A stretch of 64,000 nt of DNA from Microbacterium trichothecenolyticum (GTDB taxonomy: Bacteria > Actinomycetota > Actinomycetes > Actinomycetales > Microbacteriaceae), in contig NZ_JAUTBF010000001.1 of assembly GCF_030818955.1 (NCBI RefSeq), positions 1,116,001 to 1,180,000 of the forward strand, written 5' to 3'. The position numbers and the translations under genes are program-made. Numbering within the stretch: the first letter of the stretch is position 1; each line of letters starts with the position of its first letter. Below are positions 644-16,426 of this stretch, one piece after another. The notes beneath the pieces were generated by a model, which saw nothing but the letters and a program-made list of their open reading frames with translations, was not told where the DNA came from and did not search any database.

Positions 644-2050
644 TCAGACCGCCGCGGCCTCGGTACGCGAGAGCGCTTCGAGCACCTGCGGGATGATCTG
701 GTACACGTTTCCGCAGCCCAGCGTGATGACGTAGTCGCCGGGACGGGCGATCTCGGCCGTGTAGTCGGCGGCCGCCTGCCAATCGGGCACGTAGTGCACG
801 TGTGCCGGGTCGGCGAACGCGCCGCTGACGAGCTCGCCGGTGACACCCGGCACGGGGTCTTCGCGCGCGCCGTACACGTCGAGCATGACCGTGTGGTCGG
901 CGTGGGTCTCGAGCACCTCGGCGAACTCGCGGTACATCTCCTGCGTGCGCGAGTACGTGTGCGGCTGCTGGATCGCGATGATGCGCCCCTCGCCCACGAC
1001 CGTCCGCGCGGCCGAGAGGGCGGCGGCGACCTCGGTCGGGTGGTGCGCGTAGTCGTCGTAGACGCTGACGCCCTGCTGTACGCCGTGCAGCTCGAACCGG
1101 CGCACCGTGCCGCCGAAGCCCTCCACCGCGCGGGCGGCGCCCTCGAGCGAATGGCCGAGCACGCGGAGCACGGCAACCGCCCCCGCGGCGTTGACGGCGT
1201 TGTGGGCGCCGGGAACGCGCAACTGCACGTCGACGCTCTCGCCGTCGGCGGTCAGCGTGAAGGCGACCGGCCCGTCGGTGCGGATGCCGCTGAGCCGGAC
1301 GTCGACGTTCTCTGCCGCGCCGAAGGTGACGACGTTCGCGTGCGTGATGCGCTCGCGCACCGCGCGGGCCCCGGCGTCGTCGGCCGAGATGACCACGGCC
1401 TCGCTCGCCGCGTCGGCGAAACGCGCGAAGGCGGCGTCGAACGCATCGCGCGAGCCGTAGTGGTCGAGATGGTCGGGGTCGACGTTGGTGATGAGCGCGA
1501 CCGAGGTGTCGTACAGCTCGAACGTGCCGTCGGACTCGTCGGCTTCGATGACGAAGAGCTCGTCGGAACCGGTGCCGCTGGAGGCGCCCAGGTCGGCGAT
1601 CACGCCGCCGTTGACGAACGTCGGGTTCTCGTTCAGCGCGCGCAGCGCCGTGACGATCATGCCGGTCGAGGTGGTCTTACCGTGCGCTCCGGCGACCGAG
1701 ACCAGGCGGCGTCCGCCGATGAGCCAGTGCAGCGCCTGCGAGCGGTGGATGACGTGCAGGCCGCGCTGCTTCGCCGTGACGAACTCGGGGTTCTCGGGCC
1801 AGATCGCGCCGGTGTGCACGACGGTGTCGGCATCTCCGAGGTGGGCCGCGTCGTGCCCCACGTACACGGTGGCGCCCCGGGCGGCGAGGTCGCGCAGCGC
1901 TGCACTGTCGGCGCGGTCGGAGCCGGAGACCCGGATGCCGCGGTCGAGGAACATGCGCGCGAGGCCGGACATGCCCGAACCGCCCACACCGATGAAGTGC
2001 GCGGAGGTGATGGTCGCGGGGATGGGGAGGCTCAGGTCGGGTCTGATCAT
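644..2050 (-). CDS. murC: UDP-N-acetylmuramate--L-alanine ligase MurC
   Basis: MurC adds L-alanine to UDP-MurNAc, the first amino acid of the peptidoglycan stem peptide, in the cytoplasm. The 468-residue protein has the Mur-ligase N-terminal nucleotide fold ([11 protein letters not shown], about residues 19-29), the ATP-binding [10 protein letters not shown] loop at 121-130, a central catalytic domain and a C-terminal domain with [11 protein letters not shown]. The frame is open further upstream, but the ATG at 2050 gives the usual Mur length and the N-terminus seen in the family. It belongs to the dcw cluster but is separated from murG by an 11.4 kb catabolic operon. A TAAACT box at 2061-2066 could give it its own promoter. 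Confidence 0.97.
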
Positions 2051-2272: not shown

Positions 2273-3736
2273 TCAGTGCGTCGTCAAGACACCGTCGACC
2301 ACGCGCGGCACGCCCCACGGGTTGGACTCGCGCAGCGGCTCGGGAAGCAGCGCGTCGGGCACGTTCTGATACGCCACGGGTCGGGTGAAGCGCGTGATCG
2401 CCGCGGCCCCCACCGAGGTCGTCGCCGGCGCGGTCGTCGCCGGGTACGGACCGCCGTGATGCTGCGCGTGCGTCACCGAGACGCCGGTGGGCCACTGGTT
2501 CCACAGCACGCGCCCCGCCCGGCCCGAGAGCACCGGCAGCAGATCGGCCGCGAGGGCGTCATCCGGATCGGCGAAAAGGCTCGCGGTGAGCTGGCCCTCC
2601 AATCGCGCCGCCAGAGCCGGCAGGACGCTCTCGTCGTCGTACTCGACGACGAGAGCGGCGGGGCCGAACACCTCGCCCGTGAGGGTCTCGAGGTCGGCGA
2701 CGACCTGGTCCACCCCGACGCGCAGGAGGACGGGCGTCGGGCTCGCGGATGCCGCGTCGACGACTCCGTTCGCGACGACGACGTCGGGGTGGTCGGCGAG
2801 CGCGCCCAGGCGGCGGGCGAATCCCGCGCGCATCGCGTCGTTGAGCATCGGCACGCCGTCGGGCAGCACCGCGTCGGTCAGGATCGCGGGCAGCTCGGAG
2901 TCCGCCGGCACGAAGAGCAGTCCCGGCTTGGTGCAGAGCTGCCCCGCACTGCCGGTGACGGAGGCCACGAACCCGTCGGCGATCTCGCCCGCCCGGGCCC
3001 GCGCCGCGCCGGGTGCGACGAAGGCCGGGTTGACGCTGCCGAGCTCACCGAAGAACGGGATGGGCTCGGGTCGGGCTGCGGCGATGTCGAACAGTGCGCG
3101 GCCGCCTGAGATCGACCCCGTGAAGGCTCCCGCGGCGATCTGCGGCGCCCGCAGCACCCGCGCCCCCGCCTCGGTGCCGAAGACGGTCTGCACGAGCGCA
3201 TCGGGGGCCCCGGCGGCCGAGGCGACCTCATCGATCACACGCGCCGTCTCCGCGCTCAGACGCGGGTGGCCCGGGTGCACCTTCAGCACCACGGCGCTGC
3301 CGGCGGCCAGGGCGCTGGCCGTATCGCCCCCGGCCACCGAGAACGCGAACGGGAAGTTGCCGGCCGCGAACACCACGACCGGTCCGACCGCGATCCGCAC
3401 CCGCCGCAGGTCAGGGCGCGGCGCGCCCATCGGCCAGTCGGGGTCGGCGTGGTCGATGCACGCGTCGAGCCACTGTCCGCGAACGATCTCGTCGGCGAGG
3501 AAACGCAGCTGGAACGTCGTGCGGACCAGCTCCGCGGTCAGACGTGTCTCGGTCAGATGCGTCTCTTCGGCGGCGACGTCGATGAGGCCGGGGCCGGCAC
3601 CGTCCAGGGCGCCGGCGAGCGCGCGCATCACCCGTGCCCGCTCGGTCGGGGCCGTCCGCGCCCAGGCGGACGAGGCCTCGGCGGCGCGGGCGACGATGCG
3701 GTCGACCTCTTCGGCGGTGGTGTCGGGGATGGTCAT
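2273..3736 (-). CDS. 2,5-dioxovalerate (2-oxoglutarate semialdehyde) dehydrogenase
   Basis: An NAD(P)-dependent aldehyde dehydrogenase of 487 residues, probably oxidising 2-oxoglutarate semialdehyde to 2-oxoglutarate, the last step of hydroxyproline breakdown. It shows the cofactor region with FAAGNFPFAFSVAGGD (about 122-137), the FTGSISGGRAL loop, the catalytic glutamate in PFFGELGSVNP, and the active-site cysteine in GQLCTKPG. The SVAGGDT/GELGSVNP pattern is typical of the semialdehyde dehydrogenase branch. It is the last gene of the operon, starting 11 nt after the FAD oxidoreductase. The substrate is inferred from the neighbours; related enzymes also act in pentose or glucarate routes. 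Confidence 0.9.
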   Translation of the reverse strand: MTIPDTTAEEVDRIVARAAEASSAWARTAPTERARVMRALAGALDGAGPGLIDVAAEETHLTETRLTAELVRTTFQLRFLADEIVRGQWLDACIDHADPDWPMGAPRPDLRRVRIAVGPVVVFAAGNFPFAFSVAGGDTASALAAGSAVVLKVHPGHPRLSAETARVIDEVASAAGAPDALVQTVFGTEAGARVLRAPQIAAGAFTGSISGGRALFDIAAARPEPIPFFGELGSVNPAFVAPGAARARAGEIADGFVASVTGSAGQLCTKPGLLFVPADSELPAILTDAVLPDGVPMLNDAMRAGFARRLGALADHPDVVVANGVVDAASASPTPVLLRVGVDQVVADLETLTGEVFGPAALVVEYDDESVLPALAARLEGQLTASLFADPDDALAADLLPVLSGRAGRVLWNQWPTGVSVTHAQHHGGPYPATTAPATTSVGAAAITRFTRPVAYQNVPDALLPEPLRESNPWGVPRVVDGVLTTH

Positions 3737-3747
3737 CGGTTCTCCTG

Positions 3748-5262
3748 TCAGGGGCGGTCGGGCGCCGCGGTGGCCGGCGCGAGCGCGTGCGCGTGCGGGC
3801 TCTCGGGCTCAGGGGGCGTCGACGCCCCTGCGAGCGCCGCGATCTCGCCGAGCGGGAGCGGGATACCGATCGACCGCTTGTGCAGCGGCTCGATCTGGGC
3901 GGTGCTCCATCGGCATCCGGTCCGTTCTCCGACCAGGCTCGCGAGGGCGAACCCGCAGACCCGGCCCTGACACCACCCCATCCCGGGACGCGCCGTGACG
4001 CGGACGTCGCGCGGGTCTTCGGCGCGCTGGTCGTCGACGGCCTCGGCGATGGCCGCCGCGTCGACTTCTTCGCATCGGCAGACGAGCGTGTCGGGCTCCA
4101 GCCACCTCGACCACTCGGTCGGCACGACGCTCGCGGCATGCATCGCGCGGGCGAAGGCGCGCGCCCGCGCGACGCGTCGACGCAGCCCTCGCCGACGCGC
4201 GGGGGCGTCGGTGCCGAGGGCGTCGGCCACCGTCGTGCGGGCCGCGAGCTCGCCCTCGGTCCACGATTGCACGGCGCCGCCGATCCCGGTCGCCTCCCCC
4301 GCGACGTAGACACCCGACAGCGAGGCGCGGTGATCGGCGTCGATGTCGACCACGAGCGAGCCGTCGACGTCGAGACGGGTGCGAAGCCCCAACTGCACCG
4401 CCAGCTCGAGCTGCGGCGTAAACCCCCACCCGAACGCCACGAGATCGGCATCCACACGGGTGGGCTCGCCCGTGGCGCGGCCGCGCGTGTCGACGCGAGA
4501 GAGCGAGACCCCCTCTGCCCGATCCTCGCCGTGCACGCGGGTGACGATCGTGCGGGAGCGGAAGGGGATGCGGTGACGCAGGAACGTGCGCGCGTACTCG
4601 GCCCCCTCGAGGAGCTTCCCGGGCTCGAGGGCCGCGTGCAGCGGGCGGCGGGCCCACCGCAGGAGCGAGTTCGCCTCGCACACGGCGACCACCTCGACAC
4701 CGGCCTCGGCCAGTCCCGCCGCGACCGACAGCAGGAACGGCCCGGTCCCGGCCACCACCGCGCGGCGCCCGGGTGCGATCTGATGCGCTTTGACCAGGGC
4801 CTGCACGCCGCCGGCGGCCATGACGCCCGGCAGCGTCCAGCCCGGGACGGGCAGCTGCCGATCGTAGGCACCGGTGGCCAGGATGACTCGCTCGGCCGAC
4901 ACCGCGCGTTCGGCGGGCGGTACGGGATCGGCGCCGGCGACGGCGGCGGTGTGCAGCACGAAGCCGGTGCCGCCCGCGAGGATCTGCCACACCTGACGGC
5001 CGTACAGACGGCGGACGGCTCCGCGAGCGACCGCGGCGTCCAGCCGTGTGCGCAGGTCGACGAAGCGTCGCCAGTGGTGGTGACCGACGGACTCGTCGCG
5101 CGCGAAGTGCGGCAGATGGGGTTCGGACGGGTGCCTCCAGAACTGTCCACCGCTCTGCAGGCCCGCATCGATCACCGTCACCGTCATGCCCTGTTCGGCG
5201 GCGGTGACGGCGGCGGCGAGGCCCGCGGGGCCTGCACCGATGACGGCCAGTGTGCGCGTCAT
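3748..5262 (-). CDS. FAD/NAD-dependent oxidoreductase, alpha subunit of a three-part D-hydroxyproline dehydrogenase
   Basis: A 504-residue pyridine nucleotide-disulfide-type oxidoreductase. It opens with a dinucleotide fold (VIGAGPAGLAAAV, about 7-19), contains a second one (AVVAGTGPFLLSVA), and ends in a BFD-like [2Fe-2S] cysteine set: CRCEE near residue 415 and WCQGRVCG about 35 residues later. This is the large subunit of the HcnB/opine oxidase/LhpF type. It partners with the 2Fe-2S protein just upstream (4-nt ATGA overlap) and the DAO-type subunit before it. Together these are expected to oxidise cis-4-hydroxy-D-proline to pyrroline-4-hydroxy-2-carboxylate. The frame extends upstream in phase, but the ATG at 5262 is set by the overlap and the N-terminal motif. 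Confidence 0.9.
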   Translation of the reverse strand: MTRTLAVIGAGPAGLAAAVTAAEQGMTVTVIDAGLQSGGQFWRHPSEPHLPHFARDESVGHHHWRRFVDLRTRLDAAVARGAVRRLYGRQVWQILAGGTGFVLHTAAVAGADPVPPAERAVSAERVILATGAYDRQLPVPGWTLPGVMAAGGVQALVKAHQIAPGRRAVVAGTGPFLLSVAAGLAEAGVEVVAVCEANSLLRWARRPLHAALEPGKLLEGAEYARTFLRHRIPFRSRTIVTRVHGEDRAEGVSLSRVDTRGRATGEPTRVDADLVAFGWGFTPQLELAVQLGLRTRLDVDGSLVVDIDADHRASLSGVYVAGEATGIGGAVQSWTEGELAARTTVADALGTDAPARRRGLRRRVARARAFARAMHAASVVPTEWSRWLEPDTLVCRCEEVDAAAIAEAVDDQRAEDPRDVRVTARPGMGWCQGRVCGFALASLVGERTGCRWSTAQIEPLHKRSIGIPLPLGEIAALAGASTPPEPESPHAHALAPATAAPDRP

Positions 5263-5645
5263 GAGACCTCTCTCGACGTGGGGGACGAAACGGCGTCGTC
5301 TCCATGCGGCGCCTCGCCCGCGGGGACGCACGGGCGCTCGGCGGCGTCGGCGGCGACGAGGGGAGCATCCGGATCCGCGCTCAGGACGCGGGCTCCGGCG
5401 ACGGCGGGAACCAGGCACGCGCGCTGACTGCGCCGATCGTCGACGGTGAGCAGACAGTCGAAGCACACGCCGATGCCGCAGAACAGTCCCCGGGGGCGCT
5501 GCTGCACGCGGGTGGTGCGCCACGACGTGATGCCGTGCGCCATGAGCGCGGCGCCGACGCTCTGCCCGGCGACGAACGGCACGCTCTCGCCGTCGAACGA
5601 GAAGTGGGCGGATTCGGCGGCGCGCTCGCGATCCACGGCGCTCAT
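5259..5645 (-). CDS. (2Fe-2S)-binding small subunit of D-hydroxyproline dehydrogenase
   Basis: A 128-residue plant-type ferredoxin-like subunit (HcnA/LhpE type). The cluster ligands are visible in FCGIGVCFDC (about residues 55-64) with a fourth Cys in SQRACLVP around residue 77. It passes electrons between the two flavin subunits encoded on either side. Its ATG overlaps the stop of the DAO-type gene (ATGA) and its own TGA overlaps the next ATG, so the three subunits are translationally coupled. The last 30 residues are low-complexity and poorly conserved in the family. Confidence 0.88.
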   Translation of the reverse strand: MSAVDRERAAESAHFSFDGESVPFVAGQSVGAALMAHGITSWRTTRVQQRPRGLFCGIGVCFDCLLTVDDRRSQRACLVPAVAGARVLSADPDAPLVAADAAERPCVPAGEAPHGDDAVSSPTSREVS

Positions 5646-6799
5646 GCGGCGGCCACCAGGTCGAGGCGCGCGGGGCGGAACGGGGCGAGGTCGAGATCGG
5701 GCGTCTGCCCCCGGAGCGCCTGGACGAGGAGCTTGGCCGTCCCGACCGACAGTCCGACCCCGGCTCCTTCGTGCCCGGTGGCGTGCCAGAGGCCGGGGAG
5801 ACGGTCGTCTTCGCCGATGGCGGGGAGGTGATCGGGGCAGTACGGGCGGAACCCCGTGTACGTCCGCAGCACGTTCGCCCCGGCCAATGCCGGGAACAGC
5901 GCAATCGCAGCGCTGGCCAGTCGCGTCACCGGCTCCAACGCCCAGCTCTCGTCGAACCCGACGCGCTCGCGGCTCGCGCCGATGAGCACCGTCCCGCTCG
6001 GGGTGCCCTCGACCACCGGCGACACCTGAAGCCCGGCGTCGCCGCTGGCGACGTCACCGACGTACTCGGCTGCGTAGACCTTGTGATGCACGGTCACCGG
6101 CAAAGGCTCGGTCACGAGCACGAATCCCCGTCGTGGGAGGACCGGCAGATGCACGCCCGCCGACGCGGCGACCTCGCCGCTCCACGGGCCGGCGCAGTTG
6201 ATCACGGCCCCGGCCGGGACGACCTCACCGCGCGTGCGGACGCCGATCGCGCGACCGCCGCGCACGAGGATCTCGTCGACGGGGTGGTGCGGTCGCACCT
6301 CGGCGCCGTCGGCACGGGCGAGCGCGAGCAGGTGGTGGGCGGCCAGCACCGGCTGCACCTGCGCGTCCTGCGGATAGAACGCTCCGGCCACGAGCGCCGG
6401 GGAGAGAGCGGGTTCGTAGGTGCGGAGCGCTGCCGAATCGGCGACGTCGTCGACCTCGATGCCGAGGCCCCGCTGGTGCTCGGCGAGAGCGCGCAGCGTG
6501 GCGGCACTGGCGTCGGACGTCGCCACCACGAGCCCGCCTTTGGCCTGGAACTCCCACTTCTCGGCGTGCTCGGCGAGGTCTTCACGCCACACGCTCTGCG
6601 AGTACCGGGCGAGCTCGAGCTCGGGACCGACCTCTTTGTCGGAGAGCAGGAGGTTTCCCTCGCATCGGCTGCTTGTGCCCGAGGCGATCGGCCCGCGGTC
6701 CAGAACCACGACACGCAGTCCCGCGCGCGCGGCGAAGCACGCCACGGCCGCGCCGACGATCCCCGCGCCGATCACGACGACGTCGGGGCTCCGGCTCAT
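5642..6799 (-). CDS. FAD-dependent DAO-family oxidoreductase, catalytic subunit of D-hydroxyproline dehydrogenase
   Basis: A 385-residue glycine/D-amino-acid-oxidase-fold flavoprotein. The N-terminal VVVIGAGIVGAAVA (about 7-20) binds FAD, and the C-terminal GFRPYCPDHLPAIGE and GHEGAGVGLS motifs are typical of the beta subunit of opine or D-hydroxyproline dehydrogenases. It should hold the substrate site that dehydrogenates cis-4-hydroxy-D-proline. It overlaps the regulator gene upstream by 4 nt and the 2Fe-2S gene downstream by 4 nt. A sarcosine- or D-proline-oxidising role cannot be excluded from sequence alone. Confidence 0.9.
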   Translation of the reverse strand: MSRSPDVVVIGAGIVGAAVACFAARAGLRVVVLDRGPIASGTSSRCEGNLLLSDKEVGPELELARYSQSVWREDLAEHAEKWEFQAKGGLVVATSDASAATLRALAEHQRGLGIEVDDVADSAALRTYEPALSPALVAGAFYPQDAQVQPVLAAHHLLALARADGAEVRPHHPVDEILVRGGRAIGVRTRGEVVPAGAVINCAGPWSGEVAASAGVHLPVLPRRGFVLVTEPLPVTVHHKVYAAEYVGDVASGDAGLQVSPVVEGTPSGTVLIGASRERVGFDESWALEPVTRLASAAIALFPALAGANVLRTYTGFRPYCPDHLPAIGEDDRLPGLWHATGHEGAGVGLSVGTAKLLVQALRGQTPDLDLAPFRPARLDLVAAA

Positions 6800-7578
6800 C
6801 GCGCACCTCGGCGTTGCGCGCCGGCGCCCGCGTCGGCGCCCGCGTCGTCGGCTGCGGCGGCGTCGGTCGCCGTCGGCTCGGCAGCGGCCGGCTCGGCCGC
6901 CGCGTCACGACCGGACCAGTCGGTGGTGACGTGGGCGATGTGCCCGCGCACCAGTTCGCGGGCGCCCGCGGCGTCACGGGCGGCGATGGCGGCGAGGATC
7001 TCATGATGCTCGCGCGCGGAGTCGGCCAGATGCCCCTGGGCGGCGAGGCGCGACAGACCGAAAAGCCGTGTCTGCGAGCGCAGTTGCGCGACGAGGTCGA
7101 CGAGGCGGTCATTGCCGGTATAGCGCAGGATCGTCAGGTGCAGGTCGCTGTCTTTGGACAGGTACTCGACGAGCTCGCCCCGCTCGGCGTGGACGACGAT
7201 CTCGTCGGCGAGGATGCGCAACGAGGCCAGCTCCCCGTCGGGGATGCGGGGGGTGGCTGCTTCAACAGCGGGCGGCTCCAACAGCAATCGGATGCCGGCG
7301 ACCTCTTCGAGATCGCGATCGGAGACCTCGGTGACGAGGAAGCCCCGGTTGTTCAGCGGCGTGACGAGCCCCTCGCGGACGAGGTCGAGCATCGCCTCGC
7401 GCACGGGGGTCGCCGACACGCCGAACTGCTCGCCCAGGCTCGGCGCCGAATACACCTCGCCGGGGCGCATCTCGCCGCTGACGATCGCCGAGCGCAGCGC
7501 CTGCTTGACCGTCTCACGGATGTTCGGCTGCCGTTGCAGGCGCACGACGTTGCGCAACTCGCCCGGGCCCTCGGTCAC
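6796..7578 (-). CDS. GntR-family (FCD) transcriptional regulator
   Basis: A 260-residue regulator with an N-terminal winged helix (NIRETVKQALRSAIVSG, then SLGEQFGVSATPVREAM around residues 45-60) and a C-terminal FCD ligand domain with metal-type residues (DLHLTILRYTGN, EHHEILAAI). The last 40 residues are Ala/Asp-rich and disordered. The start is taken as GTG at 7578, which overlaps the upstream stop as GTGA; a longer open frame upstream has no such support. It sits inside the hydroxyproline operon and probably regulates it. Candidate operators lie at 10565-10580 and 13739-13754. Confidence 0.9.
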   Translation of the reverse strand: MTEGPGELRNVVRLQRQPNIRETVKQALRSAIVSGEMRPGEVYSAPSLGEQFGVSATPVREAMLDLVREGLVTPLNNRGFLVTEVSDRDLEEVAGIRLLLEPPAVEAATPRIPDGELASLRILADEIVVHAERGELVEYLSKDSDLHLTILRYTGNDRLVDLVAQLRSQTRLFGLSRLAAQGHLADSAREHHEILAAIAARDAAGARELVRGHIAHVTTDWSGRDAAAEPAAAEPTATDAAAADDAGADAGAGAQRRGAR

Positions 7579-8609
7579 GATCCACTCTCCCCTGCCACCG
7601 TCACGTGCGGCGTCCTGCGCCGCTCGGCCACGATCCGTTCCGCCATCACGAGGTCCTCCCATGCCATTCCCACGCCGGTGTAGAGGGCCGGACGCCCTCC
7701 GAGCCTCTCGGGTCTCGACCTCACCAGCTCCGCCAGAGTCGTCAGCGACTGTACGCCCGACTCCCACTCGTCGACCGGACGCGCCTGCATGAGGTTGCCG
7801 TTCTCGCGCAGCGCCGACGCGCGCCCTTCGACGATCACGTCGGCGGCCCGGACGAGCGTCGCGTCGATCTCACGGTGGTCGAGCCCATGCGCCCCGACCG
7901 CGGCGACGATGGCGTCTGCGCCGATGTCGTCCAGCCCGAGCACCGGCGTCGACGACGACGTCGCCGTGATCACCACGTCGCTGGCGCGGAGGTCGGCGTC
8001 GGTGGCGACGCGCGCCGGCACCGTGTCGGAAAGCCGTGCCGCCAGCGCGGCCGCCGCGTCGCTGCGCCGCCCGAGCACAGCGACCTGCTGCACCGGGACG
8101 ACCGCGGCGAGCGTTCGCACGTGCGCCTCGGCCTGCGGTCCCGTCCCGATCACGGTGAGCAACGCGATCGAGGGCGAGGCCTGCTCGCCGCCGAGAAGGC
8201 CACGGATGGCCACCGCGGTCACGGCGGGCGTGCGCACGAGCGTGAGGGCGGCGCCCTCGAGCACCGCGACCGGGCGAAGATCGCTCCCGTCGAACAGCAG
8301 GTACCAGCCCTGGATCTTGGGCGCCCCGGCAGCGGGATTGTGCGGAGCCACGGTGAGGGTCTTCAGTCCCGCGTGCGTGCGCGAGTGGGCGGGCAGGAGC
8401 AGGAACTCCCCCACTGGCAGCGGCGACGAGAGGCGTGGCTGATCCGCCTCGGGGTCGAGCCCGTCGCGCAGGGCCGCGGTGATCGCCGCGACCGCGACCC
8501 GGGGATGCGCGATCTCGCGAATGGCCGCGGCGTCGATGAAGGCGATGTCGCCGGGCAGCCCCGGTGACTCCCCGGTCTCGGCGGACGACGTGCCGACGAC
8601 GGCGTTCAC
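7575..8609 (-). CDS. Ornithine cyclodeaminase / mu-crystallin family protein, probable pyrroline-2-carboxylate reductase
   Basis: A 344-residue NAD(P)H-dependent protein of the OCD/mu-crystallin family. Seen are the substrate-side KTLTVAPHNP region, the Rossmann motif TVIGTGPQAEAHVR (about 152-165) and SDVVITATSSSTPV. Members inside hydroxyproline or proline-racemase operons usually reduce pyrroline-2-carboxylate to L-proline, a step of trans-3-hydroxyproline use; others are ornithine cyclodeaminases. The GTG start at 8609 overlaps the epimerase stop (GTGA), and the stop overlaps the regulator start. The function is assigned from context, so the substrate is tentative. Confidence 0.85.
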   Translation of the reverse strand: MNAVVGTSSAETGESPGLPGDIAFIDAAAIREIAHPRVAVAAITAALRDGLDPEADQPRLSSPLPVGEFLLLPAHSRTHAGLKTLTVAPHNPAAGAPKIQGWYLLFDGSDLRPVAVLEGAALTLVRTPAVTAVAIRGLLGGEQASPSIALLTVIGTGPQAEAHVRTLAAVVPVQQVAVLGRRSDAAAALAARLSDTVPARVATDADLRASDVVITATSSSTPVLGLDDIGADAIVAAVGAHGLDHREIDATLVRAADVIVEGRASALRENGNLMQARPVDEWESGVQSLTTLAELVRSRPERLGGRPALYTGVGMAWEDLVMAERIVAERRRTPHVTVAGESGS

Positions 8610-9608
8610 AGCAGGAATCCGCGCGGGAAGGGATCCGACGGATCACGCATGTACTGCGCGGTGCCGGTGACCCAGGCGCGACCGGTGATGGTCGGGACCA
8701 CTGCGGGGATGCCCGCGACCTCGGTCTGTTCGACGAGCCGCCCGACGAACGTCGTTCCGATGAAGGACTCGTTGACGAAGTCGGTGTGCAGGGGCAGCTC
8801 GCCGCGCGCGTGCAGCTGTGCCATGCGGGCGCTGGTGCCCGTTCCGCACGGCGATCGATCGAACCAGCCGGGGAAGATCGCCATGGCGTGCCGCGAGTGC
8901 CGGGCGGTCGAGCCGGGCGCCGCGAGGTAGACGTGGTGCACGCCGCGGATGCCGGCGTCGAGCGGATGGACCGGCTCCGCGTCGCGCCTCCACGGCCGCC
9001 ATGATGGCCAGGCCCGCGCGCAACAGCTCATCTTTGCGGGCGCGCTCGAACGGGATACCGAGACTCTCCGTCGACACGAGGGCGTAGAAGTTGCCGCCGA
9101 ACGCGAGGTCGTACGCGACCTCACCGTAGCCGGGCACCTCGACGGAGGCGTCGAGAATGTGCACGAACGACGGGACGTTGCGGATCGTCACCGCGTCGGC
9201 GTGCCCGTCGCGCACCTGGACGTCGGCGACGACGAGTCCCGCGGGGGTGTCGAGACGGATGGTGGTCACGGGCTCGGTGACGGTGACCATGCCGGTCTCC
9301 ACTAGCACCGTCGCGACGCCGATCGTGCCGTGGCCGCACATCGGAAGGCATCCCGAGACCTCGATGTAGAGCACGCCCCAGTCGGCGTCGGGCCGGGTCG
9401 GCGGCTGCAGGATGGCACCGCTCATGGCGGAGTGCCCGCGCGGCTCGGTCATCAGGAAGGTCCGCACGTGGTCGCGGTGCTGAAGGAACCACTGCCGACG
9501 CTGCTCCATCGTCTCGCCAGGGAGGACGCCGACCCCGCCCACGATGACGCGGGTCGGCATCCCTTCGGTGTGCGAGTCGACCGCGTGGTACACCTCAGCG
9601 GAGCGCAC
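8606..9608 (-). pseudogene. 4-hydroxyproline 2-epimerase (proline racemase family), frameshifted
   Basis: Two reading frames together encode one proline-racemase-family protein of about 333 residues. The first part, from GTG 9608, carries the first catalytic cysteine in MCGHGTIG and stays in frame to LAIMAAVE. The second part continues in another frame from about DAEPVHPLDAGIRGVHHVY to the end and holds the second catalytic cysteine in SPCGTGTSA. Having two cysteines points to epimerase/racemase activity rather than the Thr-containing 3-hydroxyproline dehydratase. The switch lies near 8983-8996 and fits one extra base (or two missing). It could be a real mutation or a sequencing error. The stop overlaps the next gene's GTG, so the reading frames otherwise fit the operon. 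Confidence 0.85.
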
Positions 9609-9620
9609 GGGAACCCCCGA

Positions 9621-10529
9621 TCACTTGTAGCCCTTGGCGAGCACGGCCTCGGTGTCGGCGATGATCCGGGTGCGCACGGGCTCGGGCAGCGGCAGGCGGG
9701 GCGGGCGCGTGGTGATGCCCGCGGGGGCGACCCCGGCCACCTGCTGCGACAGCTTGATCGCCTGCACGAACCACGCCTTGGAGTCCCAGCGCAGCAGCGG
9801 GTGCAGATCGCGGTAGATCTCCAGCGCGCGCTGCCACTTCTGCGGGTCGCCCGAGGTCGACAGCTCGTACAGCTCGACGGTGGCCGACGGGATGGCGTTG
9901 GGGTACCCGGCCACCCACCCGAGGGCGCCGTTGATGCCGAGTTCGAGCACGACGTCGTCGGAGCCGATCGAGATGTCGAGGTCGGGCACGAGTTCGCGGA
10001 TCTCGAACGCGTGGCGCACGTCACCCGAGAACTCCTTCACCGACACGATGAGCCCGTCGGAGAACAGCCGCGCGAGCAGGTCGGGCCGCAGGTCGACCTT
10101 GGTGTCGATCGGGTTGTTGTAGGCGAGGATCGGCAGGCCCACCTCGGCCACGCGACGATAGTGGTCGACGACCTCGTCGTCGGAGGCGTTGTAGGCGTTC
10201 GGCGGAAGCAGCATGACAGCGGGGGCGCCGTTCTCGGCGGCGTGCTCGGTGAGGCGCACGCTCTCGAGGGCGCCGTACGCACCGACCCCGGGAATGACGG
10301 CGACGCCCTCGGGGGCCGCCTCGACCGCGGTGAGGAACACCTGCTTGCGTTCCTGTTCGGTCAGGGTCTGGTACTCGCCGAGCGACCCGTTGGGGATGAT
10401 GCCGGTCACGCCGTTCGCCGTGGTGAAGCGGACGTGCTCGGCGTACGCGTCGTACGCGACCGAGAAGTCGTCGTGGAAGGGAAGGGTGGTGGCGAGGTTG
10501 ACACCGTGCCAGGGCTTGCGTTCGGTCAT
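9621..10529 (-). CDS. Dihydrodipicolinate synthase family protein, probable pyrroline-4-hydroxy-2-carboxylate deaminase
   Basis: A 302-residue TIM-barrel lyase of the DapA/NAL superfamily. The N-terminal GVNLATTLPFHDD, the GIIPNGSLGEYQTL motif (about 43-56) and the Schiff-base lysine in SVKEFSGD (about 165) are present. In hydroxyproline operons this enzyme (LhpC/HypD type) deaminates and dehydrates pyrroline-4-hydroxy-2-carboxylate to 2-oxoglutarate semialdehyde. The start chosen is the ATG at 10529; the frame is open upstream into the intergenic region. It starts the enzyme part of the operon, 94 nt after the transporter lipoprotein gene, and the epimerase follows after 12 nt. Confidence 0.9.
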   Translation of the reverse strand: MTERKPWHGVNLATTLPFHDDFSVAYDAYAEHVRFTTANGVTGIIPNGSLGEYQTLTEQERKQVFLTAVEAAPEGVAVIPGVGAYGALESVRLTEHAAENGAPAVMLLPPNAYNASDDEVVDHYRRVAEVGLPILAYNNPIDTKVDLRPDLLARLFSDGLIVSVKEFSGDVRHAFEIRELVPDLDISIGSDDVVLELGINGALGWVAGYPNAIPSATVELYELSTSGDPQKWQRALEIYRDLHPLLRWDSKAWFVQAIKLSQQVAGVAPAGITTRPPRLPLPEPVRTRIIADTEAVLAKGYK

Positions 10530-10564
10530 GGGAGAGTCTCTCGTGTTAGCGGGGTGCGCACGTG

Positions 10565-10580
10565 TTATTGCAATTGTACA
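10565..10580. promoter_or_regulatory. Candidate GntR operator upstream of the deaminase gene
   Basis: An unusually AT-rich stretch of overlapping palindromes (ATTGCAAT, CAATTG, TGTACA) lies in the 94-nt gap before the deaminase gene. It shares the core ATTGCA and the following TGT.CA with the inverted repeat at 13739-13754. That similarity, and the GntR gene in the operon, suggest a common operator. This is inference only. Confidence 0.35.
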
Positions 10581-10623
10581 GGGTGGGGGTGTGCGACGGC
10601 TCGACGCCGCACACCCCAGAACG

Positions 10624-11514
10624 TCAGCTGGCGGGAACGATGTACTGCGTCGCCTGCACCTTGCCGAGATCGGGATCCAGGCCCGCCTTCGACAGCAGGC
10701 CAGCGATGGCTCCATCGGCGCGCATGGCCTCGATGTCGTCCGAGATCGCCGTCTTGAGCGAGGTGTTCCCCTTCGTCAGGGGGAACGCCGCCTCGGGGGC
10801 GGGCTCGAGCGCCTTGACGCGCGAATCGGGGGTCTTGTTCGCCAGGGCGATCTTCACCGAGTCGTCGCCCGGGAACTCCGCGACCGCGGTGCCGTAGGCG
10901 TCGATGAGAGTGGTGAGCCGGCCGGCGTCGAAGTCGGCCTTGAGCTCCACCGAGCTGGGGTAGGTCTGCAGCCGGTCGCCGAGGATCGCGCGCAGATCGT
11001 CGACCCACAGGTAGCCCTCGATAGTGCCGACCTGACCGGTGGACTTCTCGATGTCGGCGACCGACGTCTGTCCGTCCTTGGAGACGATCCCCATGCCGTC
11101 GAGGTACGTGGATGCCGAGAAGTCGACGGCCTTCAGACGCTTCTCGGTCGCATCGATCGTGCCGATGGCGATGTCGAGCGTGCCGTTCGAGATCGACTGC
11201 ACCGCGTCGGCATAGGTGGCCTGCTGCCAGACCGGCTCGAGGCACTCCTTCTCGAGGATGTCCTTGACGATGTCGACGTCGATGCCGGCGGGCTCGCCGC
11301 TGTTGTAGCTGGAGAAGGGGACGATGTCGATGACGCCCACGGTCAGCTTGCCCGACGAGACGGTGGTGATGCCCTCGTGGGCCGGGGTGCAGCCGTCCGC
11401 GACGGTGCTCTGCGGGGAGCTGCAGCCGCTCAGGGCCAGCGCGGTGACGGCGGCAGCCGAGGCCAGCAGGCCGACGTGGCGGAGGGGACGGGACAGGGTG
11501 GGGCGACGGTGCAT
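10624..11514 (-). CDS. Amino-acid ABC transporter substrate-binding lipoprotein
   Basis: A 296-residue extracellular solute-binding protein of family 3 (polar amino acids). A signal peptide ends in the lipobox LALSGC with the lipidated Cys at residue 31. The mature part has the two-lobe pattern: LTVGVIDIVPFSSYN, GIDVDIVKDIL, and the recognition block ISNGTLDIAIGTIDATEKR. It probably brings proline, hydroxyproline or a related amino acid to the permeases encoded upstream. A 67-nt gap separates it from the second permease. It is unusual in lying between permease and enzyme genes rather than first in the operon. Confidence 0.92.
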   Translation of the reverse strand: MHRRPTLSRPLRHVGLLASAAAVTALALSGCSSPQSTVADGCTPAHEGITTVSSGKLTVGVIDIVPFSSYNSGEPAGIDVDIVKDILEKECLEPVWQQATYADAVQSISNGTLDIAIGTIDATEKRLKAVDFSASTYLDGMGIVSKDGQTSVADIEKSTGQVGTIEGYLWVDDLRAILGDRLQTYPSSVELKADFDAGRLTTLIDAYGTAVAEFPGDDSVKIALANKTPDSRVKALEPAPEAAFPLTKGNTSLKTAISDDIEAMRADGAIAGLLSKAGLDPDLGKVQATQYIVPAS

Positions 11515-11581
11515 GGGATGTGCTTTCTCTCAGGGGTGAGCGGACGGGTGGAGCACGGGGGACGGAGGAGACGAGTCAGAC

Positions 11582-12241
11582 TCATGCACGGTGGGCACCG
11601 AGCCTCTTCTCGAAGAAGACGGTGATCCAGGTGGCGGGAACCGAGACGACGGCGTAGACGAGGCCGGCGAGGACGAACACCTGCAGGTACTGGAAGTTCT
11701 GCGAGCCCAGCTGGTAGGCCTGCTTCATCAGCTCGGGCACGGCGATGCCGTACGCCAGCGACGTGCCCTGGAACATCTGGATGGCGAGCCCCATGAGGCC
11801 CGGGATCGCGGAGCGCAGCCCTTGCGGGGCGACGACCCGGGCGAGGGTCCAGCCGCGCGTGAGCCCCAGCGCGTCGGCGGCTTCGAGCTGCCCGCGCGGA
11901 ACGGACTGGACGCCTGCGCGGATGATCTCGGACGAGTACGCGGCGGCGTTCCACGACAGACCGATGCACGCGGCGGTGAAGCTGTCGAAGGTGATCCCGA
12001 CCTTGGGCAGGCCGAAGTACACCAGGTAGAGGATCACCAGTGCGGGCGCTCCGCGCCCGATCTCCACGATCACGAGACACGCCACGCGGACGACGGTGGC
12101 CCGCACCGAGACGCCGAATGCGAGCACGATGCCCAGGGCGTAGCCCACGACGATGGAGATGAGGGCGAGCACGAGGCTGATGCGCAGTCCGTCGAGCATC
12201 GACGGCAGGTAAGAGGCCCAGTCGGCGAGGAGCTGCATCAT
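11582..12241 (-). CDS. Amino-acid ABC transporter permease (HisMQ type), second copy
   Basis: A 219-residue inner-membrane permease with about five hydrophobic segments and the HisMQ coupling loop ALGLTRGWTLARVVAPQGL around residues 135-155, preceded by the EIIRAGVQSVPRGQLEAA signature. It forms a heterodimer with the neighbouring permease. Two ATG codons are adjacent; the first (12241) overlaps the upstream stop as ATGA and was chosen. The open frame further upstream is a shadow of the other permease. The substrate is inferred from the hydroxyproline enzymes in the same operon. Confidence 0.92.
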   Translation of the reverse strand: MMQLLADWASYLPSMLDGLRISLVLALISIVVGYALGIVLAFGVSVRATVVRVACLVIVEIGRGAPALVILYLVYFGLPKVGITFDSFTAACIGLSWNAAAYSSEIIRAGVQSVPRGQLEAADALGLTRGWTLARVVAPQGLRSAIPGLMGLAIQMFQGTSLAYGIAVPELMKQAYQLGSQNFQYLQVFVLAGLVYAVVSVPATWITVFFEKRLGAHRA

Positions 12242-12888
12242 GCCACCGCCCGTCGAAGACGCGCATCCAGCCGACGCGACGCGTAGGCCACCGGCAGGCT
12301 GAGCACGATGTAGAGCCCGCCCGCGATGACGTAGGGAAGCAGCCCCGCCAGGGTGGGGTTCTGTCGCGCGAAGGACTGCGCCTGGAACACCATCTCGGCG
12401 ACGACGATGGTCGAGGCGATCGAGGTGTCTTTCAGCAGCCCGACGAAGTAGGTGGCGATCGAGGGCGACACGATCGTGAACGCCTGCGGGAGCACGACGT
12501 GGAACAGGCGCGTGCGCGGGGTGAGGCCGAGCGCCTCGGCCGCCTCGGTCTGCCCGCGCGGCACGGTCTGGATGCCGCCGCGGTAGATCTCGGCGAGATA
12601 GGCGATCGAGACGAGGCCCAGGCCCACGATGGCCGACTGCAGGGCGTCGAGCTTGAATCCGCCGATGACGATGCCGAACTTCAACACGAAGAGCCAGACG
12701 ATGATGGGGATGCCACGGACCAGGTCGACGCACACACGGCAGAGCAGTCGCAGCGCGAGGTGGCGGGACTGCAGGCCGAGCGACACGGGCAGGGCGCCGA
12801 CCACGCCGATGAGCATGGCGCACACGGCGAGCAGCAGGGTGAGCGGCAGTCCTTTGAGGACCGCGACGGCGGCGGCGAGAACGTCCAT
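12238..12888 (-). CDS. Amino-acid ABC transporter permease (HisMQ type), first copy
   Basis: A 216-residue integral membrane permease with a short periplasmic start, about five membrane helices and the coupling loop EALGLTPRTRLFHVVLPQA. The EIYRGGIQTVPRGQTEAA signature is close to that of its neighbour, so the two probably arose by duplication and work as a heterodimer. The ATG overlaps the stop of the ATPase gene (ATGA) and its own TGA overlaps the next start, so the three transporter genes are translationally coupled. Confidence 0.92.
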   Translation of the reverse strand: MDVLAAAVAVLKGLPLTLLLAVCAMLIGVVGALPVSLGLQSRHLALRLLCRVCVDLVRGIPIIVWLFVLKFGIVIGGFKLDALQSAIVGLGLVSIAYLAEIYRGGIQTVPRGQTEAAEALGLTPRTRLFHVVLPQAFTIVSPSIATYFVGLLKDTSIASTIVVAEMVFQAQSFARQNPTLAGLLPYVIAGGLYIVLSLPVAYASRRLDARLRRAVA

Positions 12889-13670
12889 CAGCGCTCCAGT
12901 ACCGCGCGCAGGAACCGGCGGGTGCGCTCGACCTGGGGGTCGGACATGATCGCGCGAGGGTCGCCCTGTTCGATGATGTGCGAGTCGGCCATCACCACGA
13001 GGGTGTCCGAGACGTCGCGGGCGAAGTGCATCTCGTGGGTGACGACGAGCATCGTCATCCCCTCGTCGGCGAGCTCGCGCATCACCGCCAGCACCTCCAG
13101 GCCGACCTCGGGGTCGAGGGCACTGGTGGGCTCGTCGAAGAGCATGATGCTCGGCTCGAGGGCCAGAGCGCGCGCGATGGCGATGCGCTGCTGCTGACCG
13201 CCCGAGCAGCGCCCGGGGTGCTCGTTCGCCTTGTCGGACAGCCCCACCCGCGACAGCAGCGCGTGGGCCCGGTCGTGCGCCTCTTCTTTGCTGCGCCCGA
13301 GCACCTTGCGCTGCGGGAAGACGATGTTCTCGAGCACGCTCAGGTGCGGGAACAGGTTGAACGACTGGAACACCATTCCCACCGATCGACGGAGGGCGGC
13401 GAGATCGCGAGCGGTGACCGCGCGTCCGGGCTCGATGACGTGCCGATCGACGCGGATGACGCCGGAGTCGGGCCGTTCGAGCAGGTTGATGCAGCGCAGG
13501 AACGTGCTCTTTCCCGCCCCGGACGGTCCGATGAGCGCGGTCACCGTGCCCGGCTCGACGTGCAGCGAGACGTCGTCGAGCACGACGGTGTCGCCGTACC
13601 TCTTCGACAGATGCTCCAGGTCGATGCCGACGCGCTCCGCGCCGTGCGCGGATACCTCGATGAGCGCCAT
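12888..13670 (-). CDS. Amino-acid ABC transporter ATP-binding protein
   Basis: A 260-residue ABC ATPase of the polar amino-acid (HisP/GlnQ) type. Walker A is GPSGAGKST (about 48-56), the signature is CSGGQQQR, and Walker B is IMLFDEPTSALD, followed by a His switch in VVTHEMHFA. The ATG at 13670 is preferred because AGGAAGG sits 7 nt before it; a GTG at 13703 in the same frame lacks a comparable site. This is the first gene of the eleven-gene hydroxyproline operon. A promoter/operator candidate lies at 13729-13755. Confidence 0.95.
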   Translation of the reverse strand: MALIEVSAHGAERVGIDLEHLSKRYGDTVVLDDVSLHVEPGTVTALIGPSGAGKSTFLRCINLLERPDSGVIRVDRHVIEPGRAVTARDLAALRRSVGMVFQSFNLFPHLSVLENIVFPQRKVLGRSKEEAHDRAHALLSRVGLSDKANEHPGRCSGGQQQRIAIARALALEPSIMLFDEPTSALDPEVGLEVLAVMRELADEGMTMLVVTHEMHFARDVSDTLVVMADSHIIEQGDPRAIMSDPQVERTRRFLRAVLER

Positions 13671-13728
13671 GGCCGCCTTCCTCTCGATGTGTGTCATCCC
13701 CACCCCGGAAGCCGCTTGCGGTATCGGG

Positions 13729-13755
13729 ATATTACATGTGACATTGCACTGTCAG
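13729..13755 (-). promoter_or_regulatory. Promoter and operator candidate for the hydroxyproline operon
   Basis: Read on the minus strand, CTGACA (13755-13750) and TAATAT (13734-13729) could act as -35 and -10 with a 15-nt spacer. Between them lies a perfect inverted repeat, TGACA-N6-TGTCA (13739-13754), placed where a repressor would block RNA polymerase. The region is much richer in A+T than its surroundings. The GntR protein encoded in the operon is the obvious candidate ligand. Confidence 0.5.
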
Positions 13756-13997
13756 GTATAACGCACCACATGCCACCTACCGAATCGCTTTACATGAATT
13801 TCACATGTCGCAGCGCATCGTCATCATCACGAAACACAGCAGCTGCGGCGCCGGCGACCCGGCGAGGGGGACGCGGCCGGCGCGAGCACACGCGTGCACC
13901 CGTTCGCGACGACGGTCAGCGCCGACCTCGACGCGCGCTCTCAGCCGCCCTCCCCCGCGCAGCCGCCCTCCCCCGGGCAGCAGCTCAGCACCGCCTC
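13756..13997. other. Non-coding gap between murG and the hydroxyproline operon
   Basis: The murG-to-ATPase gap is 327 nt (13671-13997). Apart from the promoter region it holds an AT-rich patch (13785-13810) and a GC-rich part next to murG. An 18-nt period repeat of CAGCCGCCCTCCCCCG occurs at 13942-13957 and 13960-13975. No credible gene is seen. The reading frames across it are Arg/Pro-rich shadows. Confidence 0.6.
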
Positions 13998-15071
13998 TCA
14001 GCGGGCGAGAGCCTCGTCGACCAGGGCGATCACGTTCTCGGTGCCGGTACGGATGCCGGTGCGCGCGGCTGCGGAGCGCATGGCGCCCCGGCGTTCGTCG
14101 TCGCGCAGCAGCGGTACGATCTCGGACCGCACGCGCTCGGGCGTGAGATCGGCGTCGGCGATGAGCAGGGCCGCACCGGCGCGCACCGCCGCGGCGGCGT
14201 TCAGGCTCTGCTCGCCGTTGCCGACCGCGTAGGGCACGTACACCGCCGGGATACCGAGGGCGCCGATCTCGCTCACGGTCGCAGCGCCCGAACGCGAGAC
14301 GATGAAGTCGGCCAGGGCGAACGCCAGGTCCATACGGTCGACGTAGCGCACGACGGCGTATCCGTCGACACCGGGGTCGGGCAGGTCGGAGTTCTGTCCC
14401 GTGACGTGCAGCAGCTGCCACCCGGCGTCGAGCACGTCGCGCCACGCCCCGCCGAAGGCCGTGTTCAGCCGCAGCGCCCCGAGCGAGCCGCCGAAGACGA
14501 GAAGCGTGGGGCGTGCGGCATCCAGACCGAAGCGGGCGGCGGCTTCGATACGTAGGGCCGCGGCGTCGAGGTCGACGATCTCGCGGCGCAGTGGCATCCC
14601 CACCACGCGCGCTCGGCGCAGGGGCGTGCCCTCGAACGCCACGCCGACCCCGGCCGCACCGCGAGCACCGAGCACGTTGGCCAGGCCCGGCTTGGCGTTG
14701 GCCTCGTGCACGACGAACGGCACGCGCTCGCGTCGCGCGGCGACGTAGGCGGGGGCCGCGGCGTACCCGCCGAAACCGACGACGACGTCGACCCCGCGCT
14801 CGCGGATCATGCGGCGTACCGCGGCGACCGCACGCAGGAACTGCGCGGGGAAGGCCGCCGCCGCCCTGTTCGGGCGTCGGGGGAAGGGCACCTTGGCGAC
14901 GATGAGCAGTTCGTACCCGCGCAGCGGGACCAGCCGCGACTCGAGGCCCTCGCGCGTGCCGAGGACGAGCACCTCGGCCGAGGCGTCGCGCGCGCGCAGA
15001 CCGTCGGCGACGGCGAGGAGGGGGTTCACGTGCCCGGCGGTGCCGCCGCCGGCGAGGAGGTAAGTCGTCAC
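13998..15071 (-). CDS. murG: UDP-GlcNAc--MurNAc-pentapeptide-PP-undecaprenol GlcNAc transferase MurG
   Basis: MurG converts lipid I to lipid II on the inner face of the membrane. The 357-residue GT-B protein starts with the acceptor loop YLLAGGGTAGHVNPLLA (about 4-20), continues with VGFGGYAAAPA, and has the C-terminal donor-site region SRSGAATVSEIGALGIPAVYVP. Length and motif order are standard. The ATG at 15071 lies 91 nt after ftsW. In most bacteria murC follows directly, but here an unrelated operon intervenes. Confidence 0.97.
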   Translation of the reverse strand: MTTYLLAGGGTAGHVNPLLAVADGLRARDASAEVLVLGTREGLESRLVPLRGYELLIVAKVPFPRRPNRAAAAFPAQFLRAVAAVRRMIRERGVDVVVGFGGYAAAPAYVAARRERVPFVVHEANAKPGLANVLGARGAAGVGVAFEGTPLRRARVVGMPLRREIVDLDAAALRIEAAARFGLDAARPTLLVFGGSLGALRLNTAFGGAWRDVLDAGWQLLHVTGQNSDLPDPGVDGYAVVRYVDRMDLAFALADFIVSRSGAATVSEIGALGIPAVYVPYAVGNGEQSLNAAAAVRAGAALLIADADLTPERVRSEIVPLLRDDERRGAMRSAAARTGIRTGTENVIALVDEALAR

Positions 15072-15104: not shown

Positions 15105-15164
15105 GCGACCGGCGGGTCAGCGACGTGCGAGTCGGCGACGGGCGGGTCGGCGACCGGCGGCCTC
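15105..15164. repeat. 15-bp tandem repeat, four copies, at the 3' end of ftsW
   Basis: Four 15-nt units starting GCGAC (15105-15119, 15120-15134, 15135-15149, 15150-15164) differ by a few bases; the consensus is GCGACCGGCGGGTCG. The array fills most of the ftsW-murG gap and just touches the ftsW stop codon. Being a multiple of three it could arise or vary without a frame cost if translated, but it lies after the stop in the ftsW frame. Confidence 0.7.
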
Positions 15165-16416
15165 AGCGCGAGCGGGTCGAGGGCGTCGAGGCGCGGCCGC
15201 GCGCGGGACGCGACGGTGCCGTGGCCATCGCCCGGCGATCCGGCAGCGTGCGCGCGCACGACAGCAGCACACCGCACGCGATGAGCACCGACAGCAGCGA
15301 GGTGCCGCCTTGCGACATGAAGGGCAGGGGAACGCCGAGAACCGGGAACACCCGCAACACCACGGCCACGTTGATCATGGCCTGACCCACGATCCAGATG
15401 GTGATCGCGCCGCACACGATGCGCACGAACGGGTCGTCGGTGCGGCGGATGATGTGAAAGGCCCCCACGGCGAACAGCGCGAACAGCGCGAGCACCACGA
15501 CGCAGCCGATGAGTCCGAGCTCTTCGCCGACGATGGCGAAGATGTAGTCGTTGGCAGCGGCGGGGAGCCAGTCGTACTTCTCGGCGGAGTTGCCGAGGCC
15601 CACGCCGAACACTCCCCCGGCGGCGAGTCCCCAGATGCCGTGCAGCGGCTGGTAGCAGTCGCCGAGGTAGTTGGCGAGGCAGTCCTGGTCGAGGAAGCTC
15701 ATGATGCGGCGCATGCGGTCGGCGCTCGTGAGGGCGAACAGGGCGATGGCGCCGAGGGCAGCGATCGCCGGCAGCACGAAGATGCGCAGGCGCAGGCCCG
15801 AGAAGAACAGCGCACCCAGCAGCACCAGCACGAGGATCATCGTCGTGCCGAGGTCTTTTCCCCCCATGACGGTCGCGATCACGAGCGCGGTGACCGGCAC
15901 GATCGGGATGAACACGTGCCGCCAGTCGCCCAGCAGGGTCTGTTTGCGGTACAGCACGTAACCGAGCCACAGCGCGAGAGCGAGCTTGAGGAACTCCGCC
16001 GGCTGTGCCTGGATGCCGGCGATGAGGATCCAGTTGCGGTTGCCGTTGGCCGAGATGCCGAGCGGGGTGAACACCAGCAGCTGGAAGGCGGTGGCGAGGA
16101 TCAGCGCCGGCCACGCCATGCGCTTCCAGAACTTCAGGGGCGCACGGCTGAGCACGAACATCAGCGGGATGCCGATGACGGCGAACACCGCCTGCTTGAG
16201 GACGTGCTCGAAGGGGCTCTGGCCGTCGTCGAGCGCCGAGGTGGCCGAGAGCACCATGATCAGCCCGAAGCCGGTCAGCAGCAGGGCCGCCGAGGTGATG
16301 AGGAGGAACTCGCTGGGCACGGGACGAAAGGCCCGGCCGAGCGACACCCGGGCGGCCAGGCCCGCGCGGGCGGGCTCGTCGGCGTCCTGACGGGGAGGCG
16401 GTGCCGTCGTGGTCAC
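15163..16416 (-). CDS. ftsW: Lipid II polymerase FtsW
   Basis: A SEDS-family glycosyltransferase that polymerises septal peptidoglycan together with the class B PBP FtsI. The 417-residue protein has an N-terminal cytoplasmic tail, about ten membrane segments, and the SEDS signatures (IQAQPAEFLKLALALWLGY; KDLGTTMILVLVLLG; IVGEELGLIGC; VLPFMSQ-like PLPFMSQGGTSLL). The GTG at 16416 follows the murD stop by 10 nt and is preceded by GAGGGG. The C-terminus is a Ser/Arg/Thr-rich tail. Confidence 0.95.
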   Translation of the reverse strand: MTTTAPPPRQDADEPARAGLAARVSLGRAFRPVPSEFLLITSAALLLTGFGLIMVLSATSALDDGQSPFEHVLKQAVFAVIGIPLMFVLSRAPLKFWKRMAWPALILATAFQLLVFTPLGISANGNRNWILIAGIQAQPAEFLKLALALWLGYVLYRKQTLLGDWRHVFIPIVPVTALVIATVMGGKDLGTTMILVLVLLGALFFSGLRLRIFVLPAIAALGAIALFALTSADRMRRIMSFLDQDCLANYLGDCYQPLHGIWGLAAGGVFGVGLGNSAEKYDWLPAAANDYIFAIVGEELGLIGCVVVLALFALFAVGAFHIIRRTDDPFVRIVCGAITIWIVGQAMINVAVVLRVFPVLGVPLPFMSQGGTSLLSVLIACGVLLSCARTLPDRRAMATAPSRPARGRASTPSTRSR

Positions 16417-16426
16417 TCGTGTCCCC

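Follow-up and report, generated by a model that had tools for sequence, protein, structure and literature searches.

A predicted hydroxyproline operon lies between murG and murC in the dcw cluster of Microbacterium trichothecenolyticum

Results

Gene content of the murG–murC interval

The window analyzed here is a 64-kb stretch (bases 1116001–1180000) of the Microbacterium trichothecenolyticum genome, which is 3.74 Mb in one contig (completeness 99.39, contamination 0.12). In the window, the murG and murC genes of the division and cell wall (dcw) cluster are 11,947 bp apart. Both are on the minus strand and 12 co-directional genes lie between them. The initial annotation of this DNA described an eleven-gene hydroxyproline operon that splits murG from murC. 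Profile searches uphold the operon, its site, and the shared strand, but the gene count is 12. The tight internal packing that it described is also seen. Nine of the 11 gene junctions overlap or leave 12 nt or less and the other two are 67 and 94 nt, lengths that depend on start codons, some of which were picked by the analyst. The genes are as follows.

15163–16737, minus strand: ftsW, open and recognized
13998–15071, minus strand: murG, the dcw gene upstream of the insert (TIGR01133, 241 bits, slightly below the cut-off of 250; 87–93% identity to close relatives)
12888–13670, minus strand: ATP-binding cassette (ABC) transporter ATPase, polar amino acid type (TcyN/GlnQ/EhuA-like, 277–295 bits, below the equivalog cut-offs)
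12238–12888, minus strand: ABC permease 1 (EhuC-like, below cut-off; HEQRo_perm_3TM, above cut-off)
11582–12241, minus strand: ABC permease 2 (PF00528; 65–68% identity in 10 Arthrobacter-type loci)
10624–11514, minus strand: substrate-binding protein, SBP_bac_3 (PF00497)
9621–10529, minus strand: dihydrodipicolinate synthase (DHDPS) family, probable pyrroline-4-hydroxy-2-carboxylate deaminase (PF00701, family level; 80–87% identity in 11 Microbacterium loci)
8606–9608, minus strand: proline racemase family, probable 4-hydroxyproline 2-epimerase, split by a frameshift (PF05544)
7575–8609, minus strand: ornithine cyclodeaminase (OCD)/mu-crystallin family, pyrroline-2-carboxylate reductase-like (PF02423; PRK07340, 150 bits, below cut-off)
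6796–7578, minus strand: GntR/FCD regulator, candidate HypR counterpart (PF00392 and PF07729, domains only)
5642–6799, minus strand: FAD-dependent DAO-family subunit, probable D-hydroxyproline dehydrogenase (PF01266, 243 bits; 67–72% identity in 24 other genomes of the genus)
5259–5645, minus strand: Fer2_4 [2Fe-2S] subunit (PF13510)
3748–5262, minus strand: FAD/NAD(P) oxidoreductase with a BFD-like [2Fe-2S] domain (PF07992 and PF04324)
2273–3736, minus strand: aldehyde dehydrogenase, probable 2-oxoglutarate semialdehyde dehydrogenase (PF00171; nearest solved sequences 1eyy and 3v4c)
644–2050, minus strand: murC, start at 2050 (TIGR01082, 415 bits, above cut-off)

Gene clusters for trans-4-hydroxyproline breakdown contain a proline-racemase-family epimerase, an FAD/[2Fe-2S] D-hydroxyproline dehydrogenase, a DHDPS-family deaminase, and a 2-oxoglutarate semialdehyde dehydrogenase. 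The DAO, Fer2_4, and Pyr_redox_2 plus BFD genes of the insert are consecutive and match, at family level, the three-part dehydrogenase set expected for D-hydroxyproline. The expected DHDPS-family deaminase is present, again at family level (PF00701). The aldehyde dehydrogenase is placed in the PF00171 family only, and none of the 25 NCBIfam models among the matches listed for it reaches its cut-off. From this gene content, the insert is predicted to be a hydroxyproline transport and catabolism operon of an ordinary actinobacterial kind.

The epimerase gene is split between two reading frames, which the initial annotation missed. The N-terminal part (profile positions 2–201) is in an open reading frame (ORF) at 8643–9608 and the C-terminal part (profile positions 202–324) is in an ORF at 8606–9124 in another frame, so that the parts are contiguous on the Pfam profile. 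In related loci that have both parts, they are in a single frame in 76 of 76. No long homopolymer was found at the break. The other eleven operon genes and ftsW are open, and the break is therefore local; general frameshift trouble in the region is ruled out. The split may be either a mutation or a sequencing error.

The murG–murC junction in other genomes

The genus sample comprises 366 genomes. The murC and murG genes were sought in 149 of these, four of which were unusable: G054 (neither gene), G043 (murG not found), G029 (a weak fragment, with the murC row not listed), and G045 (genes on separate contigs). This leaves 145 murG–murC intervals, 144 of them from genomes other than that of the window, with the gap measured from the murG stop to the murC start. 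In the 15 closest relatives by murC, the gap is 50–421 bp. Outside the genus but within the family, 29 genera were compared, represented by the 29 best of 59 genomes, and all 29 have gaps of 7–200 bp.

A close DAO subunit is found in 25 of the 366 genomes, including that of the window. In the other 24, where it is 67–72% identical, the operon was never seen at murC. In 11 of these genomes, murC shares the contig but is separated by 0.94 Mb or more. In the other 13, it is on a separate contig, which leaves some room for adjacency; three of the 13 (G018, G100, and G101) have murG–murC gaps below 2 kb. This comparison of relatives supports the insertion proposed in the initial annotation. The position of the operon is unique among the genomes examined and, judged by this distribution, looks recent.

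In a tree of the 145 genomes (583 columns), the window falls in a group of 11 with a support of 96, together with nine genomes that have gaps below 400 bp and G057, whose 423-bp gap contains a hairpin described below. The sister is G092, with a support of 93, below the 95 mark.

Gaps of at least 400 bp occur in 47 of the 144 other genomes. A YtrA-type GntR gene occupies the interval in 40 of the 144, all among these 47. As in the window, this junction holds genes and the element upstream of murC is kept. Most of these gaps contain just a single small gene or a pair of them, on the opposite strand, in contrast to the 12-gene co-directional operon of the window. The 145-genome tree requires a minimum of 14 changes in the YtrA label, of which just four are imposed by branches with good support. 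One gain followed by many losses may be an alternative to repeated gain.

Other observations concern the content of these gaps. L104, L106, L125, and L126 are among the loci of the YtrA type, and in the examples inspected the gap genes are on the strand opposite to the dcw cluster. A membrane protein of approximately 300 residues without a Pfam family is matched in 19 of the 144 intervals, and the gap genes are possibly envelope-related. A lipoprotein-like ORF of 130 residues without a Pfam match (L119:491-883) has matches in six of the 144. The largest other gap, 5.0 kb in G010, adds an 878-residue AAA/LuxR-type regulator (L092:726-3362).

Relatives of the operon

Operon relatives were fetched by the DAO subunit, and the best 80 of 365 confirmed loci were compared. 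All 12 genes are present in identical order in 14 of these 80 loci, all of which are from Micrococcaceae (Arthrobacter, Pseudarthrobacter, and Sinomonas). For five core genes, the order is conserved in 63 of the 80. Unlike the window, neither the Micrococcaceae loci nor any others of the 80 contain a murC or murG match within the fetched flanks, which are at most 10 kb, some loci being short. In 10 Arthrobacter-type loci, the ATPase is 80–82% identical to that of the window. The non-transporter proteins of these loci are approximately 45–68% identical, except for the epimerase parts (73–81%).

In the 12 Microbacterium operons (L007–L018), the catabolic genes, where present, are ordered as in the window, and the deaminase is 80–87% identical in 11 of them. 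L010 is truncated at a contig end, and no reductase match was obtained for L014. Unlike in the window, no close transporter was found in these loci, and their ATPase matches are 30–36% identical. The DHDPS tree groups the window with 11 Microbacterium rows with a support of 100. The ATPase tree was limited by a 60% identity cut, which left Micrococcaceae rows alone beside the window. For the binding protein, one of the 366 genomes yields a match at E<=1e-60, the window's own. By these protein comparisons, the transporter half is foreign within the genus sample, which makes it probable that the operon was horizontally acquired. Composition was uninformative as a sign of transfer. The guanine-plus-cytosine (GC) fraction is 0.715 both for 2273–13670 and for murC, and the GC and third-position GC (GC3) of the operon resemble those of the dcw genes.

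A conserved element upstream of murC

The region between the insert and murC contains the following features.

2165–2236, no strand assigned: dispersed 72-bp hairpin element, with three perfect-arm copies in this genome
2051–2100, minus strand: conserved murC upstream region, a GGCGCGCC block and TAAACT (2061–2066), the latter 10 nt before the ATG

The initial annotation pointed to a possible −10 of murC at 2061–2066, and its position proves to be strongly conserved. In the 15 closest relatives, a GCGCGCC-like block is followed by GACGTAAACTCGCA(G/T).CG.C-ATG before murC, with a TAGGAT variant in G008, G052, and G026. A TANNNT hexamer is found 9–10 nt before the murC start in 139 of the 144 other genomes. 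In windows shifted by 20–120 nt, the count is 0–3 of 144. The hexamers are TAGACT (77), TAGGAT (44), TAAACT (14), and four others that occur once each; the search pattern itself dictates the T, A, and final T. Genomes without TANNNT number five: G147, G056, G102, and G042, with gaps of 5–14 bp, and G063, with a gap of 87 bp. The hexamer is present in each of the 47 genomes whose gap is 400 bp or more. In the window, the murC upstream region is intact downstream of the insert.

According to a survey of bacterial genomes (PMC3160421), a TANNNT approximately 10–12 bp before the start is a sign of leaderless genes. The murC gene of the window fits this description, with 10 nt between TAAACT and the ATG. 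In contrast, PMC3605390 describes the dcw genes of Mycobacterium tuberculosis as co-transcribed from a promoter upstream of murE. We infer that murC opens its own transcription unit in this genus, that this unit is older than the insertion, and that its boundary accepts inserts.

The initial annotation had suggested that the insertion may decouple murC and ftsQ expression from the mraZ promoter. As stated, this is not supported, with TANNNT near murC in 139 of 144 other genomes, gap or no gap. The element is present across the genus with and without gaps, and murC autonomy was therefore not created by the insertion; such autonomy, if real, would predate it.

The hairpin at the murC junction

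The dispersed hairpin that had been noted at the murC junction is confirmed. It is a nested palindrome with AGAACAGGGGATGCC arms, and the region 2150–2272 folds at −71 kcal/mol (z −5.3). The 15-base arm occurs 40 times in the genome with at most two mismatches on both strands, compared with two occurrences of a reversed control. Perfect-arm copies number three in the genome of the window, five in G057, six in G069, one in G026, and none in 13 other relatives. Four regularly spaced copies are held by G057:C9:88433-89161. An assignment to a repetitive extragenic palindrome (REP) system with its associated transposase (RAYT) was rejected, as no Y1 transposase match was found in the window's genome. 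For the hairpin in the G057 gap, common descent at the site is not supported, since the short flank that the two have in common is also seen at another copy. No terminator-like site was found in 2500–1900, between the operon and murC.

The operon promoter and a HypR-type operator

The operator candidate of the initial annotation, at 13729–13755, contains the following site.

13738–13751, minus strand: HypR-type operator CAGTGCAATGTCAC, one mismatch to the motif of PMC6608401

In PMC6608401, the motif of the Streptomyces coelicolor HypR repressor is given as CTNTGC(A/C)ATGTCAC. The site in the window lies 3 nt upstream of a −10 candidate, TAATAT (13729–13734), and the motif is in the operon promoter, as expected for a member of the HypR regulon. 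With at most one mismatch, the motif has one match in the 64-kb window against 0.04 expected. With two mismatches allowed, there is still one match against 1.45 expected, so the evidence for the operator rests on the one-mismatch match and its place. The initial annotation had also raised a link between wall precursor synthesis and amino-acid supply. No evidence for such a link was found: across the 64-kb window, the sole HypR site that has one mismatch or fewer is in the operon's own promoter.

An 11-nt core of the motif, TGCAATGTCAC, is listed in the same source as one HypR site confirmed by gel shift in S. coelicolor (SCO5911/5912; PMC6608401). Of the 80 loci, 73 were usable, and 44 of these carry an exact core no more than approximately 200 nt ahead of the deaminase gene; six shifted windows each gave none in the 73. 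The core of the window precedes the transporter genes, not the deaminase gene. With one mismatch allowed, a match is found somewhere in 67 of the 80 loci. In 10 of the 12 Microbacterium loci, no core with at most one mismatch was found, and L010 and L011 have stray matches. The GntR/FCD protein of the operon is a candidate HypR counterpart, inferred to repress at 13738–13751.

As described in PMC6608401, the S. coelicolor SCO6289–SCO6294 cluster shares with the window an epimerase (SCO6293), a dapA-like protein, a D-hydroxyproline dehydrogenase, and a GntR regulator (hypR, SCO6294). The window differs in having one 12-gene operon with an added ABC transporter, OCD-family reductase, and aldehyde dehydrogenase, and in having the operator ahead of the transporter genes.

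Discussion

The explanation that we hold with good confidence is that an acquired, HypR-type-regulated hydroxyproline operon landed between murG and a pre-existing, near-leaderless murC promoter. The gene content and order, the absence of the operon from this site in the relatives examined, and the positional conservation of the murC-proximal −10 are direct observations. In the proposed mechanism, the operon would import hydroxyproline, and the epimerase, the three-part D-hydroxyproline dehydrogenase, the deaminase, and the aldehyde dehydrogenase would convert it to 2-oxoglutarate. The operon would be repressed by its own GntR protein at 13738–13751. The murC gene and those downstream would be transcribed from their own promoter, as elsewhere in the genus. 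We propose that the insertion is tolerated because of this promoter and is near neutral for wall synthesis, and that the murG/murC junction owes its permissiveness to being a boundary between transcription units. The insertion probably leaves the wall genes undisturbed.

Several findings weigh against this explanation. No shared 10-mer that would form a flanking direct repeat was found between 13651–14050 and 2001–2330, and by family none of the 12 genes is an integrase or transposase. The insertion bears neither flanking repeats nor mobile genes that would mark a mobile island. The history of the operon is mosaic, with a deaminase that groups with other Microbacterium (support 100) and a transporter that resembles those of Micrococcaceae. 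The murC −10 is a conserved consensus match at which initiation is predicted. In other genera of the family, the hexamer is found 6–14 nt before the start in only seven of the 29 examined. Within the genus, TANNNT is also present in 92 of the 97 genomes without large gaps, and for this reason the association between promoter and gap is not significant alone.

The grouping of the deaminase with other Microbacterium could also mean that the arrangement is an old feature of the lineage that was lost in relatives. This is barely credible given that the operon is at murC in none of the 24 other bearers, that the 15 closest relatives have short gaps of 50–421 bp, and that none of the other 365 genomes has a binding-protein match at E<=1e-60. 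An assembly chimera, in which the operon belongs elsewhere or to another organism, would account for an arrangement known from a single genome and for a transporter unlike those of the genus. It is very improbable: the assembly is a single contig with the completeness and contamination given above, the GC and GC3 of the operon are like those of the dcw genes, and the murC upstream element is intact at the junction. Read-through is an unlikely but somewhat better candidate. Hydroxyproline-induced transcription would continue into murC and the following genes and raise wall-gene expression, as the shared direction of the operon and murC and the lack of a terminator-like site in 1900–2500 would allow. 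The very stable hairpin between the operon and murC might hinder it, and the arrangement is found in one genome only, so there is no conservation to back selection for coupling.

The state of the operon is a separate matter. If the epimerase frameshift is real, it would block the entry of L-hydroxyproline into the route and the cluster would be decaying and heading for loss. The contiguous parts in two frames, the single frame in all 76 loci that have the two parts, and the lack of a long homopolymer at the break point this way. Decay is nevertheless only a tentative suggestion, since the eleven other genes are open and both epimerase parts still score strongly for the family, which fits a very recent change or a sequencing error.

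Among the literature matches listed for Microbacterium hydroxyproline catabolism, murC/murG, dcw insertion or gene order, and actinobacterial murC promoters, a partial literature, no published report of a hydroxyproline operon between murG and murC was found by title or abstract start. The terms murC, ftsQ, and dcw do not occur in PMC3890552.

Beyond the acquired operon itself, it is reasonably likely that the near-leaderless murC promoter divides the Microbacterium dcw cluster into two transcription units and that the murG/murC boundary is a recurrent landing site, with several gene gains in a supposedly loss-only cluster. The gains that belong to this somewhat less certain part of the picture would be a YtrA-type regulator, in some cases accompanied by a membrane protein, a LuxR-type regulator, and a whole catabolic operon. 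The inserted operon is ordinary and of a known kind; its placement is unusual. The genus would thus show gene gain at one defined junction, with a conserved promoter element just downstream as a simple reason, and would offer a natural experiment in the tolerance of an essential-gene operon to insertions.

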